Source: a virus
DNA: 25,847 nucleotides
Virus record (IMG/VR): IMGVR_UViG_3300031787_000738
Coordinates: 1-25,847 of that record
Direction: 5' to 3' (one strand)
The notes below the pieces were generated by a model. It did not search any database. It worked only from the letters and a program-made list of their open reading frames with translations, and was not told where the DNA came from. A program made the translations under genes and the position numbers. Shown piece by piece: positions 18,387-25,847 of this stretch (positions within the stretch are counted from its first letter, which is position 1; every line of letters begins with the position of its first letter).

Positions 18387-20236
18387 ACTATTTTTCCTTG
18401 TTTAATATATACATCAATCCGCTGGATAGAAATTGGATTACCATTAATCTCTGCCTCTAAACCTACCTGCATTACAGCGCCTGTACCGCCAGCCTGTATC
18501 TTGAACTTATCTAAGACGATACCATCTGAGAACTCAGCAATATTGTACTCACCTATATTATACTCGTAAATTACGGCTGTGTCAAGTTTTTTCGTAAATG
18601 CAAAGAAGTTTTCGTTATAGTCAAAGCCCCACTTTACAGCTACATCCTGGTTAGAACCACCAATTACCACAAACCCAACCTGCTTCATAATCTTCTCCCT
18701 GGTAGGAGCATCGAAGTCAAAGTAGTTTGTGTAGTAACTAAACCGATAGTTAACAGCATTGTCGGTATGACCAAAGTATTTACCAATATACCCAGGTTTG
18801 CCAATGTATAGGTCTTTGGTATTAGTAACCAAGAATGACCTTGGCTCTATGTTAGTCCATGTGGTAACCCTGGCTGATCCATCCTGCAGCGGTGCTCTCA
18901 TGTCAAAGCAGTATACAAACTTGGTGGTAGGCAGAGCCAATAGATAGAAAGCATCTCGCTCGTAGTAGACAGATTTGATATTAGTTGCTGTCTCAGAAGC
19001 CACATTACCCATCAGGTCATCACGAACATTCTTAGAGATATCCCTCATAGGCAGAGACTTCTCTTGGATGACTCGCTGCAGACTACGCACACCAGCATCA
19101 GACAAGAAGATGATATCCGTACCAGTGCTCTGCACCGAATCCCTAGCAACACAACCAACATTAGGAATGTAGTCTGCTAGTGTCAGTGTAGTAACATCAA
19201 TTGGGTTTGCATAGACAGCAATGTTGTTACGACCAAAGATAATAAGGAATCCGTTGTGCGCCGCCATAGCAACTATCTTGTCTGTATTAGGAAATATAGC
19301 ATTAAGAGACAGAGAGCCTGAGTCACCGCCTTGGAAGTCAGAGCCATCCAATAAGCGACTAAAGTAGACTGTCTGTGGGTCTCCTACGATATCTGCTAGC
19401 CATATACGACCATAAGCAGCGAGAGCACAGTTAGGGCTAAAATCGGCTGTTGTGTAGCCAAGAGGTATAGTACCAACATCTCCAAGCCTTTGAAATCCGT
19501 AGGAACCTGCGTGACTGTGTGGATTAGCAATCGTTGTCACAGTGCTGGTAAGTGCGTTACCATTGCTATAACCTGCTCCACCAGTAGTAATTGTTACTGT
19601 AGCCACACCAGTACCAGACAAAGTAGCAACAGTTACTGTGGCAGCGGTAGTGCCACCAGATAGTGTAAGGATATCTCCAACATTGTAGCCGCTACCAGCC
19701 GCTGTAACTGACAAGGCAGTGATAACACCACTAGAGACAGTAGTAACTGAGAAGGTAGCACCAGTGCCTGGAGTAGGCATACGATGGTATACCAGTGTAG
19801 GATGACCAGTCTGTGCTATGTAGGCATGAGGCTCTGCTTCTGCAGCGTCACCATAAGGCAGAGCAGCAGCTTGCCAGTTGTTACCAGTAATCGTATAGGT
19901 AAGATTAGCACTATTAGCCTGATTACGCACAGAAGCAGTAGTCATCGTGGTAGTGCCAGTAAACAAATGATTATTACCGCCACTAATGAACTGACTAGAA
20001 CCATTGTCTGTCAACTCAAACATGAACTGCACTGGGTTAGCAGAGCCTAAGTCAGTGTTGACTGCACTGTTAACTGTTGTCCAGCCTCTACGAGCACCAA
20101 TACGACCATAGCGGTCAACGACACAGTTGTTAGCCTCTAGCGCAAATCCTGAAGACAGCGATACCGCAGACTCTTGGATGTTTAATCCAAAGAATCCTGG
20201 TGCAGCAATAGAAGCGGTTTGGGTCTCTTGTGCCAT
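18383..20236 (-). CDS. tail nozzle (tubular protein B, gp12-like)
   Basis: Start ATG 20236 in TAATG with the adaptor stop (617 aa). The N-terminus PGFFGLNIQESAVSLSSGFA, then NNCVVDRYGRIGARRGW, is the hallmark of podovirus nozzle proteins. The rest is beta-propeller-like (YGRIWLADIVGDPQTVYFSR, AMAAHNGFLIIFGRNNIAVY, GTDIIFLSDAGVRSLQ). Residues ~160-245 hold an extra Gly/Thr/Val-rich insertion with two related halves (AGSGYNVGDILTLSGG and GGAGYSNGNALTSTV), likely a surface decoration domain. Near the C-terminus is a short repeat, YNIGEYNIAEF. The codons of KLDTAVIYEYN also form a consensus promoter on this strand. The protein closes the tail tip and carries fibres in T7. Confidence 0.88.
   Translation of the reverse strand: MAQETQTASIAAPGFFGLNIQESAVSLSSGFALEANNCVVDRYGRIGARRGWTTVNSAVNTDLGSANPVQFMFELTDNGSSQFISGGNNHLFTGTTTMTTASVRNQANSANLTYTITGNNWQAAALPYGDAAEAEPHAYIAQTGHPTLVYHRMPTPGTGATFSVTTVSSGVITALSVTAAGSGYNVGDILTLSGGTTAATVTVATLSGTGVATVTITTGGAGYSNGNALTSTVTTIANPHSHAGSYGFQRLGDVGTIPLGYTTADFSPNCALAAYGRIWLADIVGDPQTVYFSRLLDGSDFQGGDSGSLSLNAIFPNTDKIVAMAAHNGFLIIFGRNNIAVYANPIDVTTLTLADYIPNVGCVARDSVQSTGTDIIFLSDAGVRSLQRVIQEKSLPMRDISKNVRDDLMGNVASETATNIKSVYYERDAFYLLALPTTKFVYCFDMRAPLQDGSARVTTWTNIEPRSFLVTNTKDLYIGKPGYIGKYFGHTDNAVNYRFSYYTNYFDFDAPTREKIMKQVGFVVIGGSNQDVAVKWGFDYNENFFAFTKKLDTAVIYEYNIGEYNIAEFSDGIVLDKFKIQAGGTGAVMQVGLEAEINGNPISIQRIDVYIKQGKIV
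18557..18585 (-). promoter_or_regulatory. consensus sigma70-type promoter inside the nozzle gene
   Basis: On the minus strand TTGACA (18585-18580), a 17-nt spacer and TATAAT (18562-18557) form an exact consensus promoter with ideal spacing. It lies inside coding sequence for the C-terminus of the nozzle protein and points toward the tail-collar, gp13-like, internal virion and lysis genes. Predicted start is about 18550, roughly 165 nt before the tail-collar ATG. No extended -10 TG is present. It would give these genes host-polymerase transcripts separate from the upstream tail genes. Confidence 0.7.
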
Positions 20237-20892
20237 TAAACTGGGTCCCAAAGGAATTCGTCAGGATACTTATTACCTTCGATAGAGATATGGTCTGCTA
20301 ATGAAGTCTGATATAATCCATAGGCTTCTGAGCTACGCAGTCCACCATCTTCACCACGCTCTGCCAAAGCCTTTGCATAGGCCAGGAAGATGACAGGTTC
20401 TGCAGGAACTTTGAGTTGGTCAGCATTAGCAGATAACTCAGCCTGTGGTTTAATCAAGTTAAAGTTAATTGTGTATGCACCATTAGGGATAGGATAAAGG
20501 TCTACCTGTGTATCGCCATTAGAGTCTACACCGTTAAAGTTAAAGTAGCGTGGAGCAGACTTCTCAGGAGTATCAACTAGGAACCACTCGTCCATCTCCA
20601 TAGTAGAGGCGTTATTCAGGAACCAGTTGCTTGTGTCATTAATCACATCGAAGACACGGAAACGAATACCAGAGCCAGTTAACACATAGTTAAACAGATC
20701 TGTAGAGGTAGCAACTGTGATAGTCTCTGACAGAGCATTCCAATTATAGGCATCTTCCACCTGTCTCTTAGCATCATTAACAAACTTACCAATGAGCTTG
20801 GAGTATGCAGTATCCGTAACAGATGTAACTTCATTCTCACGCAGACGAATGAGCACATCGTTAACAAGTTGTAGATAAGTCTTGTTAGCCAT
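20236..20892 (-). CDS. head-tail adaptor (tubular protein A, gp11-like)
   Basis: A 218-aa protein. TYLQLVNDVLIRLRENEVTS, then LIGKFVNDAKRQVEDAYNWN, is the typical N-terminal helical pattern of podovirus adaptor/gatekeeper proteins. Beta strands (TQVDLYPIPNGAYTINFNLI) and a helix (EPVIFLAYAKALAERGEDGG) follow, ending KYPDEFLWDPV. In T7 the gp11 ring joins the portal to the gp12 nozzle. The gene directly precedes the nozzle gene and is coupled to it by TAATG, the same order as gp11-gp12. It starts immediately after the stop of the DUF6321-like gene (TAAATG). Confidence 0.85.
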   Translation of the reverse strand: MANKTYLQLVNDVLIRLRENEVTSVTDTAYSKLIGKFVNDAKRQVEDAYNWNALSETITVATSTDLFNYVLTGSGIRFRVFDVINDTSNWFLNNASTMEMDEWFLVDTPEKSAPRYFNFNGVDSNGDTQVDLYPIPNGAYTINFNLIKPQAELSANADQLKVPAEPVIFLAYAKALAERGEDGGLRSSEAYGLYQTSLADHISIEGNKYPDEFLWDPV

Positions 20893-21138
20893 TTAGCAAT
20901 CCCATTTCCTTAGTGCCAACGCCTTCCTTGTTGGTCTACCTTTTTCATCCTTCATAGGTCCTGGCATACCGCCCATACGAGCACAGAATGACTTCCTACG
21001 AGCAGCAGCCTTGGGAGACTTCTTAGCCTCTTTAGAAGACACTGGAGGCTTTAGGTTAGCGCCTTCCTTAGCCTTGAAGTATGCCCTGCCTTTAGCGTTT
21101 AAACCGCCTTCAGGATTCTGATAGACTTTCTTGACCAT
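20893..21138 (-). CDS. small basic DUF6321-like protein
   Basis: An 81-aa lysine/arginine-rich protein. GGLNAKGRAYFKAKEGANLK, then ARRKSFCARMGGMPGPMKDE and KGRPTRKALALRKWDC, match a short conserved protein (named DUF6321 in my recollection) seen in many marine and large phages. No characterised function is known to me. The conserved Cys residues (SFCARM and the terminal WDC) may bind metal or form a disulphide. It sits in the virion operon between small basic proteins and the adaptor, with ATG 21138 in a TAATG overlap. It might be a packaged or assembly-related DNA- or RNA-binding protein; this is a guess. Confidence 0.8.
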   Translation of the reverse strand: MVKKVYQNPEGGLNAKGRAYFKAKEGANLKPPVSSKEAKKSPKAAARRKSFCARMGGMPGPMKDEKGRPTRKALALRKWDC

Positions 21139-21281
21139 TATTTCTTCGCAGTCTTTTTAGCTTCTTTAAATGCCTTAGCAGTAGGAGCGCCTTTGGTTCC
21201 AGGCTTACGCATCTTCTCTCCAGAACCTTCTTTGATACGCTTACGCTTGGCCCAGATGTTAGAGTAGAGTCCTTGTTTCAT
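21138..21281 (-). CDS. small basic protein, 47 aa
   Basis: The frame runs from ATG 21281-21279 to TAA 21140-21138. It encodes MKQGLYSNIWAKRKRIKEG, then SGEKMRKPGTKGAPTAKAF and a KEAKKTAKK end: about one third Lys/Arg with no hydrophobic core beyond the N-terminus. I remember the block SGEKMRKPG-KGAPT recurring in environmental phage contigs, always uncharacterised. The start overlaps the previous stop (ATGA) and the stop overlaps the next start (TAATG), so the three tiny genes form one coupled unit. Likely nucleic-acid binding by charge alone. Confidence 0.75.
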   Translation of the reverse strand: MKQGLYSNIWAKRKRIKEGSGEKMRKPGTKGAPTAKAFKEAKKTAKK

Positions 21282-21442
21282 TTCTTTTTCTTCTTCTTTG
21301 ACATACCAGCCATTGATAGGCCGATAGCTACTGCTTGTTTCTGCGGATAACCTTCTTTACGCAGTTTACTAATCTTAGCAGATGCTGCTGCTTGCTTGCC
21401 CTTCTTAGTGTAGGGATACTTCTTTCCGTCAACCATTGGCAT
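21278..21442 (-). CDS. small basic protein with poly-lysine tail, 54 aa
   Basis: AAGGAG (about 21453-21448) gives a good ribosome site for ATG 21442. The peptide MPMVDGKKYPYTKKGKQAAA, SAKISKLRKEGYPQKQAVAI, GLSMAGMSKKKKKK ends in six lysines. The GKKYPYT-KGK and KEGYPQKQAVAIGLSMAG blocks are, from memory, a conserved small phage protein of unknown role. It is the first of three coupled basic genes, and its ATG lies just after the 115-aa virion protein stop. The Lys run is encoded by an A-rich tract that also holds the next gene's weak ribosome site. Confidence 0.75.
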   Translation of the reverse strand: MPMVDGKKYPYTKKGKQAAASAKISKLRKEGYPQKQAVAIGLSMAGMSKKKKKK

Positions 21443-21452
21443 ACTATTCTCC

Positions 21453-21800
21453 TTAGAATTGGAATTGGACTGCGGTTTCAGGGATAAACTCTACTGTTGC
21501 TATATAGGTTACGGTATTGGTGCTAGAGTTTTGTACACGAATCTGATCCCCAGCTTGTAAAACTACCTCTGCCTCTCCATCTAATCTAATAAACTCACCA
21601 GCACCTAAGTTCTTACCACCAACAATGAAGTATTCAGTGTTAGTAGAGACATCATACCAATAGACCTTTGGAGTGTCATTGCCGGTAAGACTAATGATAT
21701 ACATTAACTGCCAAAGACCAGTATTCTTGGTAGGAACCGTAAGAATAGTATCCTTGGTGGTGGTGGTCTTAGTTGTAACAGCGGAGACTTTTCTGCTCAT
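21453..21800 (-). CDS. beta-rich probable virion protein, 115 aa
   Basis: A Thr/Val-rich protein with alternating beta-strand pattern and no cysteine or charged clusters: VTTKTTTTKDTILTVPTKNT, WQLMYIISLTGNDTPKVYWY, EFIRLDGEAEVVLQAGDQIR, TVTYIATVEFIPE. This looks like a jelly-roll or Ig-like head/tail decoration or fibre-base protein. The GAGEFIRLDGEAEVVLQAGD-type segment recurs in small structural proteins of environmental phages, from memory. It begins two bases before the stop of the 55-aa gene's end (no overlap) and precedes the tiny basic genes. Role inferred from position and composition. Confidence 0.7.
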   Translation of the reverse strand: MSRKVSAVTTKTTTTKDTILTVPTKNTGLWQLMYIISLTGNDTPKVYWYDVSTNTEYFIVGGKNLGAGEFIRLDGEAEVVLQAGDQIRVQNSSTNTVTYIATVEFIPETAVQFQF

Positions 21801-21971: not shown

Positions 21972-22544
21972 CTATCTCCACTTAGGTCCTTCCATCCAAG
22001 CTACTAACGAGTGCCTAGTTCCTTTGGTTACTGGGTTTACTTTATGTACTATGAAAGACGGGAAGATTAGTGCTGTTCCTTGTGTCTTTACCTGCTCTTT
22101 ATCTGGTGCTCCAAGGTGCAACGGTTGCATCTCAAAGTCACCGCCTTCGTACTCTTCAGGGTCTGTTAGCTGACAGATAAACGATAACTTCCTGTGAGCC
22201 TGTCTGCCATCATCCCAGTTTACATCGTTATGCCAATTATAATAACCTTGGTCTTCTGCATTATACTCTGTGAACTGTAACTCATTTAAGTGCCACAGTT
22301 CTGCACCAAAGGCATTATGATTAGCAATATGGAACAGGTTAGTTATTTCATGGTACAGCCAACCTAGTTCCTGATTATCTCTGGTAATCCATCTTACTTT
22401 ACTTCTACGAACCCTGGTATTTACATTAGAGCCACTAAATCCTATGATTGCATCTTGTGGTTCTATCTTTTTACCTTGTTCTACTATCTGTTGGCAGAGG
22501 TCTTTGTTATACCTTTGTTGCCACATTTGCCACATTGCGTTCAA
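21972..22544 (-). CDS. 2OG-Fe(II) oxygenase (prolyl-4-hydroxylase/PKHD type)
   Basis: A 190-aa protein with a full catalytic set: iron ligands H105 and D107 in YNWHNDVNW and H167 in FPSFIVHKV, and the 2-oxoglutarate-binding R177 in TKGTRHSLVAW. LSFICQLTDPEEYEGGDFE is the core strand of the PKHD/P4Hc family. These enzymes hydroxylate amino-acid side chains or other small substrates using 2OG and O2. The start is probably TTG 22544, with AGGGAG 5 nt upstream and a TTGA overlap with the previous stop; ATG 22535 is the alternative. Location in the tail-fibre block suggests modification of a fibre or of a host-surface component; this is inference. Confidence 0.9.
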   Translation of the reverse strand: MNAMWQMWQQRYNKDLCQQIVEQGKKIEPQDAIIGFSGSNVNTRVRRSKVRWITRDNQELGWLYHEITNLFHIANHNAFGAELWHLNELQFTEYNAEDQGYYNWHNDVNWDDGRQAHRKLSFICQLTDPEEYEGGDFEMQPLHLGAPDKEQVKTQGTALIFPSFIVHKVNPVTKGTRHSLVAWMEGPKWR

Positions 22545-23107: not shown

Positions 23108-25573
23108 CTATCGTGCGAGGGAGTACTTAAAGGGGTTTTCGGCAAAGGCGGCATAAATGTAGGTCACGCCACTTGAATTCATAGCTCCACTAACCGCAAC
23201 ACGAATCTTAAAACCATTAGATACAAAGTCTATCAACTGACCCGTCTGTTCAGCGGTTGATGCGTTTGCTACCAAGTAGTTTGTTGACACATTATATGGG
23301 CTTCTTGCAACATCTTCCATGACCCAATCGCCAGTAGAACTAGACGCTTTAATCATAATAAATCTCGGCCTAAACCCAAGGAACACAAAAGGCCCATCCG
23401 TAGAACCATTGCCCGTGTAACTACCAAAGGCAGAATAGCCAGCCACGGGTGCGAAGCAGTAAAATATATGAGATGCGCCGCTTTGGTTTGTGTTGCTATT
23501 AGTGCCAACAGAAAACACGCTTGATGTCGGAGCGGTGTCGTTCCAGTATGCAGTTGCAGCAGATGTTGTAAAGGCATTGGTAAGATTTATCCAGCCAATA
23601 TTATTAGCACCAACAGAGGCATGGTATACAGGCCAGTTACTACCCCCTGCATCACTGTAATTCCTGCCAAAAATAAACCGAGGTGCAGTCCCAAGTCCAT
23701 GCCCGATTGTTCCTGCGCTTCCTGTGCCAGTTGTCTTGACAATGCTAAACCCAGCCGTGGTATTTGCTCTTACTGTGCTGGCTATTGATGGCACATTTAC
23801 TGGTGAGGTAGCGTATTGACCCACCGATATTGTTTGATTAGACCCACCTGCGTTCCAGTTCCAGAACGCATAAGTTCGTCCGCTGAAATTTAGATAACCA
23901 GACGTGTCATTTGGTAGGCTATATCCGTTGGAATTAAAGGATGTTAATTGACCAGCGGTTGTATCTTCGGCGGCTGTGGTATTTGTGGCTAATGACTTAT
24001 CAACACCACGCACAACATCGTATAGCAAATGCCCAGACGAAGAATTGCTCCCTTTAGCCCACAAGAAATCAGGTTGAAAGTTAAGACCAGTTACCGACCG
24101 AGCCGACCCAGTTCCAGTTTCAAGCAAAACATTAAAGTAATCATTCGCCTGTGTCGTGCTAGTAGCACCTATGGTTACGGGAGGTAGGTTCTGTGTGCAG
24201 AGTGCCTTATATCCGCTTGGGGCCGTATTTGCAAAAGCCCTTTGCCCAAAATTCCAAGAGTTTGCGGTTGTAGAGGATTCAGCAGAACAAGCAAAAAAGT
24301 ATGGGCCGCTGGTTAGTCCAGTAAATGCCGCAGTTCCAGAGTTTTGAACCGCACCATTTTTGTAAAAATATAAAGCACCAGCATCAGCATCAAACGCTAT
24401 GCCAATAGTATCGCCATCTGTGTAGGTATTACCATAACTTGTGTATGTTCCAGAATTTACTTTTCTTCCATCGTAATAATAAGCCCAAGTATTTGCATCC
24501 TGACCAAGATAGCGGTTTGCCGCAACCATGTTTCCATTTGCAATACCCGGAACAAATTCTGTTTTATCCCCGATAGTTACTTCTGCATACCACTTGCCGC
24601 TGGTCATTCCCATTGTTGACCAGACCTGTCCGTTACTTGCAGATGAACGAGTTATGTCAAGATTGCCATTTGCCAGCGTAACGCCTGTGCTATTTTGATT
24701 CAGAGGATTCAGCGTAGCGTAATTCCCACGCACCTCACCACCAACACCTGTGTCTGTGCCATACGATGTAGGCGTGTCTACTAAGGAGTCATTACCAACA
24801 CCAGCGGCGACAGAGAATAGATTAGGCGTCCAGTTATTACCGTTGCCGGATGAGTCCTTGCCTAGTGTTGTCGAGGTAGTGTTGGAGTTATCTGAGAAGT
24901 TGAGATAAAAGCCGTTAGTGCCGTATGTGCCTGTGTATTTAACTGGCTCCCATACGCCTGTGCTTGCGTTGGTCTGACCGAATGAGGATGGGGTTAGGGC
25001 TTGACCGTCAATGAAGTTTATTTCGGTGAGGTAGCCTGAGAAATATGTGGAAGTGTTCCAAGGACTAACACCAATGTTATGGACATAGGTATTTGTATTT
25101 ATTGCTGATGTTTGACTACTAGACGGTGCTGTACCAGACCAAGTGTAATTAACACCGTTTACATACATTAACAGCTTGTTGGCTTGAGTTACTTGTGCTG
25201 AGTCATACGCAACAACCACATGATACCAAGCACTAACATCACGAAACACGGCAGTCGTTAATATGTCAATGTTTGTTGTTGATGACAAACGATTATAAAA
25301 TCTAATACATTCAACCCCGGTTCCATCGCCAAAACCAATAAATCCTGAGTTAGCACTAGTTCCATCACCGCCTTCAAAAAAACGATAGCCAGCAGTATTT
25401 CCTAATGCACTGCGCTTAATCCATCCACTCCATGTCCAAATGTTTCGGCTTGTTGGCGTACTAAAGGTTCTATTAAGGTACGCAGTATCCGCAGAGTTAA
25501 ACCGCAGACTGCGTTCTATCTGATAGCCGCCAGACGGAGCACCGCCTATTAATACTTGTTGACTGCCACTCAT
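23108..25573 (-). CDS. large tail-fibre / receptor-binding protein (LamG + SPRY)
   Basis: Start ATG 25573 (821 aa), in TAATG with the previous stop. Domains in order: a LamG/concanavalin-like module at ~22-235 (LRFNSADTAYLNRTFSTP, WTWSGWIKRS, WYHVVVAYDS, YVNGVNY, YLTEINFIDG); a SPRY-like module at ~300-460 (GKWYAEVTIGD, DGDTIGIAFDADAGALYFYK, PYFFACSA). Next come three related C-terminal segments beginning FQPDFLWAKGSN, TAPRFIFGRNYS and FRPRFIMIKASS, each with a DUF7483-like outline (name from memory). All are carbohydrate- or protein-binding beta folds, so it is the likely host-recognition fibre. It ends YIYAAFAENPFKYSLAR. No enzyme (lyase, sialidase) motif is seen. Confidence 0.85.
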   Translation of the reverse strand: MSGSQQVLIGGAPSGGYQIERSLRFNSADTAYLNRTFSTPTSRNIWTWSGWIKRSALGNTAGYRFFEGGDGTSANSGFIGFGDGTGVECIRFYNRLSSTTNIDILTTAVFRDVSAWYHVVVAYDSAQVTQANKLLMYVNGVNYTWSGTAPSSSQTSAINTNTYVHNIGVSPWNTSTYFSGYLTEINFIDGQALTPSSFGQTNASTGVWEPVKYTGTYGTNGFYLNFSDNSNTTSTTLGKDSSGNGNNWTPNLFSVAAGVGNDSLVDTPTSYGTDTGVGGEVRGNYATLNPLNQNSTGVTLANGNLDITRSSASNGQVWSTMGMTSGKWYAEVTIGDKTEFVPGIANGNMVAANRYLGQDANTWAYYYDGRKVNSGTYTSYGNTYTDGDTIGIAFDADAGALYFYKNGAVQNSGTAAFTGLTSGPYFFACSAESSTTANSWNFGQRAFANTAPSGYKALCTQNLPPVTIGATSTTQANDYFNVLLETGTGSARSVTGLNFQPDFLWAKGSNSSSGHLLYDVVRGVDKSLATNTTAAEDTTAGQLTSFNSNGYSLPNDTSGYLNFSGRTYAFWNWNAGGSNQTISVGQYATSPVNVPSIASTVRANTTAGFSIVKTTGTGSAGTIGHGLGTAPRFIFGRNYSDAGGSNWPVYHASVGANNIGWINLTNAFTTSAATAYWNDTAPTSSVFSVGTNSNTNQSGASHIFYCFAPVAGYSAFGSYTGNGSTDGPFVFLGFRPRFIMIKASSSTGDWVMEDVARSPYNVSTNYLVANASTAEQTGQLIDFVSNGFKIRVAVSGAMNSSGVTYIYAAFAENPFKYSLAR

Positions 25574-25847
25574 TAGCTTACATTCCCTTGTACAACACAA
25601 ACAGTACTAGAAATAAACACGATAGTTGCTAAACCTCTAGATGCTAAGGTCATAGTTGCTTTATCAGAGTCGGTTCCTGCGATATATGCTGTGGTAATAG
25701 AGCAAGTGATAGTAATTGTGCCAGAGGTGTTATTAAAGACAGAGATAACATCACCTTCAGCAAAAGTTGCATCTGGGATAGTAATAGATCCACCAGAACC
25801 AACTTGAACATACTTACCAATATCTGCTGTCGCAAGAGTATAAGATG
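25573..25847 (-). CDS. tail-fibre protein, 5' partial (C-terminal domain)
   Basis: The minus-strand frame is open from the window end to TAA 25575-25573. The visible 90 residues read YTLATADIGKYVQVGSGG, SITIPDATFAEGDVISVFNN, TSGTITITCSITTAYIAGTD, ending TVCVVQGNVS. This is a small beta-rich domain I recall as a C-terminal cap of marine phage tail fibres and spikes. The N-terminus lies outside the window. The stop codon shares TAATG with the large fibre gene, so the two are translated together. Confidence 0.75.
   Translation of the reverse strand, partial: SYTLATADIGKYVQVGSGGSITIPDATFAEGDVISVFNNTSGTITITCSITTAYIAGTDSDKATMTLASRGLATIVFISSTVCVVQGNVS

Follow-up and report, generated by a model that had tools for sequence, protein, structure and literature searches.

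The window analysed here is the whole of a 25,847-nucleotide stretch (positions 1 to 25,847 of IMG/VR record IMGVR_UViG_3300031787_000738) from a freshwater phage. Three small genes, termed P3, P2 and P1, are located inside its head-and-tail gene cluster. The features of the locus are as follows.

21453..21800, minus strand: 115-aa acidic protein upstream of the trio, a frequent upstream neighbour in related loci
21449..21454, minus strand: Shine-Dalgarno sequence AAGGAG before P3, recognised from the sequence
21278..21442, minus strand: P3, ORF of 54 aa, net charge +14
21138..21281, minus strand: P2, ORF of 47 aa, net charge +13
20893..21138, minus strand: P1, ORF of 81 aa, net charge +16
20983..20985, minus strand: codon of Cys52 of P1 (SFCARM), paired with Cys81 in presence and absence across the family
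20896..20898, minus strand: codon of Cys81, the last residue of P1 (KWDC), paired with Cys52 in presence and absence
20236..20892, minus strand: head-to-tail adaptor (PF24175 SU10_adaptor, E 1e-11; phrog_10775, E 2e-14; synteny)

A sequence-only reading of this DNA had described three very basic proteins of 54, 47 and 81 aa at 20893-21442, coupled by ATGA and TAATG. All three ORFs were found there on the minus strand; P3 and P2 overlap by ATGA, and P2 and P1 by TAATG. The only strong Shine-Dalgarno sequence precedes P3, while P2 and P1 have weak ones and are both coupled by overlap. The ATG of the adaptor directly abuts the TAA stop of P1. The pI values of the three proteins are 10.4-10.7, and their structural neighbours are mostly acidic or neutral; the adaptor has a net charge of −14. 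The same reading had placed the trio between a beta-rich virion protein and the adaptor. The adaptor assignment holds, but the supposed virion protein is the 115-aa acidic protein, for which profile searches gave no confident family. Each trio gene is under purifying selection, with dN/dS values of 0.070 (P1), 0.080 (P2) and 0.034 (P3) from 35-51 distinct homologues each; therefore, the three are more than chance ORFs. The structural block also encodes a 2OG-Fe(II) oxygenase (PF13640) at 21972-22544, two genes further upstream than the 115-aa protein. An 830-aa virion-type protein at 23108-25600 combines a SPRY domain with DUF7483 and is likely a host-binding fibre.

P1 is a full-length member of DUF6321 (PF19846; phrog_4689). 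The match (E 1e-28, 100.3 bits against the curated membership cut-off of 28.5 bits) covers profile positions 2-72 of 72 and nearly the whole length of P1. Most database occurrences of DUF6321 are at the C-terminus of longer proteins from cyanophages, whereas P1 of the window is a separate small protein in a trio. P2 corresponds to phrog_16028 (E 6e-26, profile positions 2-48 of 50), with the conserved pattern GLYxNIxAKRKRI...SGEKMRKPGxKGAPTAxxF and invariant columns. P3 consists of an N-terminal GKKYPYT part and a C-terminal 'KEGYPQKQAVAIGLS' part. Only its second half (residues 15-53) is matched by phrog_2423 (E 2e-8), and its GKKYPYT start is unlike typical members of that family. The blocks singled out from the sequence, GKKYPYT, SGEKMRKPG and SFCARMGG, are real, and all three are conserved across homologues. 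DUF6321, phrog_16028 and phrog_2423 are family entries to which no function is attached, so no member of the trio is wholly new. DUF6321 was not mentioned in any paper found in a literature search, none of the three proteins matched a PDB sequence, and an NCBIfam search gave chance matches only.

The AlphaFold2 model of P1 is confident (pLDDT 84.8, pTM 0.62) and contains predicted helices at residues 15-25, 35-40, 42-56 and 71-78. Comparison of the model with PDB folds gave none with E < 1, and the best VIA-align Z score was 2.2; therefore, no fold was assigned. The only confident structural matches were other viral models of the DUF6321 type in BFVD, with TM scores up to 0.91. One of these BFVD entries, A0A6J5N5R9, is from an environmental phage; this 679-aa protein includes a P1-like domain and is named after a Ferritin/DPS domain, and DNA binding is a property of DPS proteins.

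The two cysteines of P1 are present or absent together. By alignment, 224 of 288 distinct homologues carry both and 56 carry neither. Six apparent exceptions were inspected: two are cut by contig ends, three in fact retain the final cysteine, and only L273 is genuine. After correction, about 227 homologues have both cysteines, 56 have neither, and one is an exception. The phage forms that lack the cysteines have an extra Lys-rich end instead. This co-occurrence in the aligned sequences fits a structural or redox pair.

Several lines of evidence link the three genes. The order P3-P2-P1-adaptor occurs in about 76 loci on IMG/VR contigs fetched with P1 or P3. Among 80 loci seeded with P2, P1 lies within 1.5 kb in 45 and P3 within 1.5 kb in 24. 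A binomial estimate for 45 of 80, with P1 placed randomly in a 40-kb genome, is about 1e-29; because related phages are over-represented and the loci are not independent, this figure is a guide only. In locus L225, P3, P2 and P1 are joined, in the order seen in the window, into one protein of 171 aa. A scan with this protein found P2-P1 in one ORF at 66 loci (58 distinct sequences) and P3-P2-P1 in one ORF at five; at three of the 66, a separate P3 ORF lies just upstream. The first module of the fusions varies, being P3 in some and a small MPSKSxxQHRLMEA module in most. In L328, L330 and L385 the fusion lies between capsid-type genes and a following gene that is called adaptor by position only; the capsid-type neighbour in L330 matches Phage_capsid_4 (E 3e-8). 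In the model of the fused L330 homologue, the P3 part is predicted as a helical hairpin (pLDDT 80-90). The P2 part of the fused P3-P2-P1 model is weak (mean pLDDT 65.7), and thus no contacts between modules are claimed. P3, P2 and P1 form a unit, for which the natural fusions are stronger evidence than the linkage count, and the earlier description of a conserved, uncharacterised trio is borne out by them. ORFs of 134-144 aa that appeared to be further P1 fusions were rejected, as they are stop-to-stop read-outs that extend upstream of the real start. One 47.8-kb contig, IMGVR_UViG_3300042465_003683 (L112, L141), contains two P3...P1-adaptor blocks, only one of which has P2; either two phages were merged by the assembly or the tail module is duplicated.

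The unit is not obligatory. P1 occurs without P2 or P3 in about 50 of 80 P1-seeded loci, and it is also a mobile C-terminal domain of larger proteins. A tblastn search with the P1 variant of P-SCSP1 matched 538 phage records. The same kind of search with P3 gave no match in cultured phages; therefore, the distribution of P3 rests on IMG/VR. In P-SCSP1u, P1 and P2 are encoded between the capsid and adaptor genes. Neither P1 nor P2 was found in the head and tail region of P-SSP7 and Syn5, which are closely related to cyanopodoviruses that carry the trio; the trio is thus accessory and not essential to every T7-like head. The pelagiphage HTVC168P carries a trio of 35, 49 and 81 aa (+16, +17 and +25) with overlapping starts between the scaffold and capsid genes; instead of P3, it begins with another Lys-rich peptide. 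The linkage anticipated by the sequence-only reading is present, together with some of the independent scatter, that of P1, which it had named as counting against itself. Its term "undescribed system" was too strong, since each part has a family entry, P1 occurs alone or fused, and P-SSP7 and Syn5 lack P1 and P2.

Two further observations concern the neighbourhood of these modules. A small Lys-rich ORF of phrog_34011 (WEKxRPKxLGKPKxLTPAQK...GRPYPN) adjoins P1 in other phages, and among the 80 P1-seeded phage loci, 25 have it close to P1 as an independent small ORF. Examples beside P1 are as follows.

L028, 6242-6418: phrog_34011 ORF
L033, 5807-5977: phrog_34011 ORF
L037, 6242-6418: phrog_34011 ORF
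L071, 5847-6044: phrog_34011 ORF

In S-RIP2 (L163, 3989-4501), the P2 module is in frame with a cyanophage outer-membrane-protein-like barrel (PF24653). S-RIP2 and HTVC168P are both cultured phages that have P1 and P2 in stand-alone form.

Proteins that contain the P1 domain have been detected in virions. In T4-like cyanophages the domain forms the end of proteins of about 400-700 aa, such as syn9 gp114 and S-SCSM1_29 (phrog_727/T4-GC119), two homologues of which are virion-detected. Unlike the trio, these proteins have several Cys-bearing modules, are mostly encoded near terminase genes and are not accompanied by P2 or P3. The annotation of the P-SSM4 homologue points to similarity with T4-GC119, a protein of S-SM1. 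The DUF6321 proteins of T4-like cyanophages at L173 (2666-4219) and L172 (2882-4213) include additional short modules with cysteines (KDACYxKVKSRYSVWPSAYASGALVKCRK and CWxGYKKxGMKKK...PNCV), and these are found again in other phage proteins. The S-SCSM1 protein SSCSM1_29 is labelled "virion protein" in its record. In that phage, 45 proteins including NMNAT were found by mass spectrometry (PMC9602691), and NMNAT bears the same note in the record; therefore, the label follows mass spectrometry. ORF137 of S-CREM2 was detected by mass spectrometry with four peptides and 4.1% coverage (PMC10665884, Table 3). Its C-terminus is formed by a P1-like domain (E 9e-8), and its GenBank entry has no virion label. 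Both detected proteins are multi-module proteins of 490-517 aa. CsCl preparations can carry contaminants. For phages with stand-alone P1, P2 or P3, a literature search found no virion proteome. The cryo-EM models of P-SCSP1u hold capsid, portal, adaptor, nozzle and fibre only (PMC10575957); thus, neither P1 nor P2 has an ordered place in the shell or tail of that particle. This is equally compatible with a disordered location inside the particle and with absence from it.

DUF6321 is also found outside phages. In bacterial and archaeal genomes, 68 loci were found by a scan; many are on short contigs that may be phage. In Bradyrhizobium (contigs up to 2.45 Mb), Granulicella and Corallococcus, the gene lies among ordinary genes, and its neighbours are the same in related species of Bradyrhizobium and Granulicella. 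A prophage origin of the copies in these two genera was rejected because their neighbours are of housekeeping type, as judged from sequence, and are shared between species. DUF6321 is present in 12 of 60 Bradyrhizobium genomes and in 2 of 60 genomes of the family of Granulicella, and in none of 14 control genomes. In Bradyrhizobium it is fused to the phrog_34011 module. Several chromosomal proteins have tails or linkers rich in Lys/Arg and Ala/Thr/Ser, in which K+R make up 39-47% and acidic residues are rare or absent. Such segments are shared with the bacterial histone-H1-like proteins (Hc1/Hc2, AlgP), a likeness that is compositional. The long Lys/Ala-rich, low-complexity tail of the histone-H1-like nucleoid proteins is absent from P1 of the window.

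We favour the reading that the trio are packaged, nucleic-acid-binding minor head proteins, to which we assign a probability of roughly 0.45. The three small basic proteins would then be a single functional unit, synthesised late along with the components of the head and tail. Bound to the genome, they would be packaged into the head, where they would neutralise or organise the DNA, and they may enter the cell with it. P1 would be a small folded helical domain whose end may be clamped by the Cys52-Cys81 pair, and P2 and P3 would be its Lys-rich helical or flexible partners. For the window phage, we infer the packaging, the DNA binding and the effect on the state of the DNA. The T4 internal head proteins (IPI-III) are small, basic and packaged with DNA; they may serve as a comparison for how the trio might work.

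This reading is favoured by the conserved order, the linkage and the fusions between capsid-type genes and genes in the adaptor position, and by the position of the HTVC168P trio between scaffold and capsid genes. The detection of the P1 domain in virions of S-SCSM1 and S-CREM2 and the H1-like chromosomal relatives also argue for it. The location of P1 and P2 outside the cryo-EM models of P-SCSP1u is as expected for internal, unordered proteins. Against it, the P1 model matches no solved fold, and the mass-spectrometry detections concern large multi-module proteins, one of them at low coverage. A packaged DNA condenser was one of three roles suggested by the sequence-only reading; the virion data on homologues and the H1-like relatives make it the best supported of the three without proving it.

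The trio might instead help to assemble the head or to join head and tail, for instance through binding to the scaffold, the capsid or the acidic adaptor; in that case it would not have to remain in the particle. The recurrence of its genes in the head/connector block agrees with such a cofactor, since they are found directly before the adaptor, between scaffold and capsid, between capsid and adaptor, and beside the portal (e.g. L033). The negative charge of the window adaptor and the lack of order of P1 and P2 in the P-SCSP1u particle point the same way. However, P-SSP7 and Syn5 share the head and tail parts and yet lack P1 and P2 in that region, and a phage-specific factor would not explain DUF6321 in bacterial chromosomes away from phage genes. 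We regard this role as doubtful. It is improbable that the trio are injected host-takeover proteins, packaged in a few copies, with the host's nucleic acid, RNA polymerase or ribosomes as early targets. P1 domains do occur in multi-module proteins of 1019-1217 aa on metagenomic contigs, one with a weak Acb1-like match, which we take to be reminiscent of polyvalent injected phage proteins. Cyanophage virions are also reported to carry non-structural regulatory proteins (PMC9602691, PMC10665884). However, the trio has no known effector fold or target, and its sequences differ little between phages whose hosts are very different, a pattern uncommon among host-specific effectors. A late, RNA- or ribosome-directed role of the same basic modules outside the particle is very unlikely: small basic folded proteins often bind RNA, and the SFxARM...RKALALRKW block of P1 presumably bears a loose resemblance to small ribosomal proteins, but the P1 domain was detected in virions of two phages.

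The packaged reading can be extended to a broader and rather unlikely proposal. DUF6321 and the P2, P3 and phrog_34011 modules might constitute an unrecognised class of nucleoid proteins common to phages and bacteria. The phage set, separate or fused, would be packaged with the genome, and some bacteria would keep a chromosomal version with an H1-like tail. The cysteine pair of the phage form would lock the domain and might act as a redox switch as the particle leaves the cell.

The modules of the trio occur in hundreds of marine and freshwater phage records, mostly of T4-like cyanophages. The fusion series shows which of these small proteins belong together, and the virion detections and the chromosomal relatives turn modules annotated as "unknown" into a testable DNA-packaging hypothesis.
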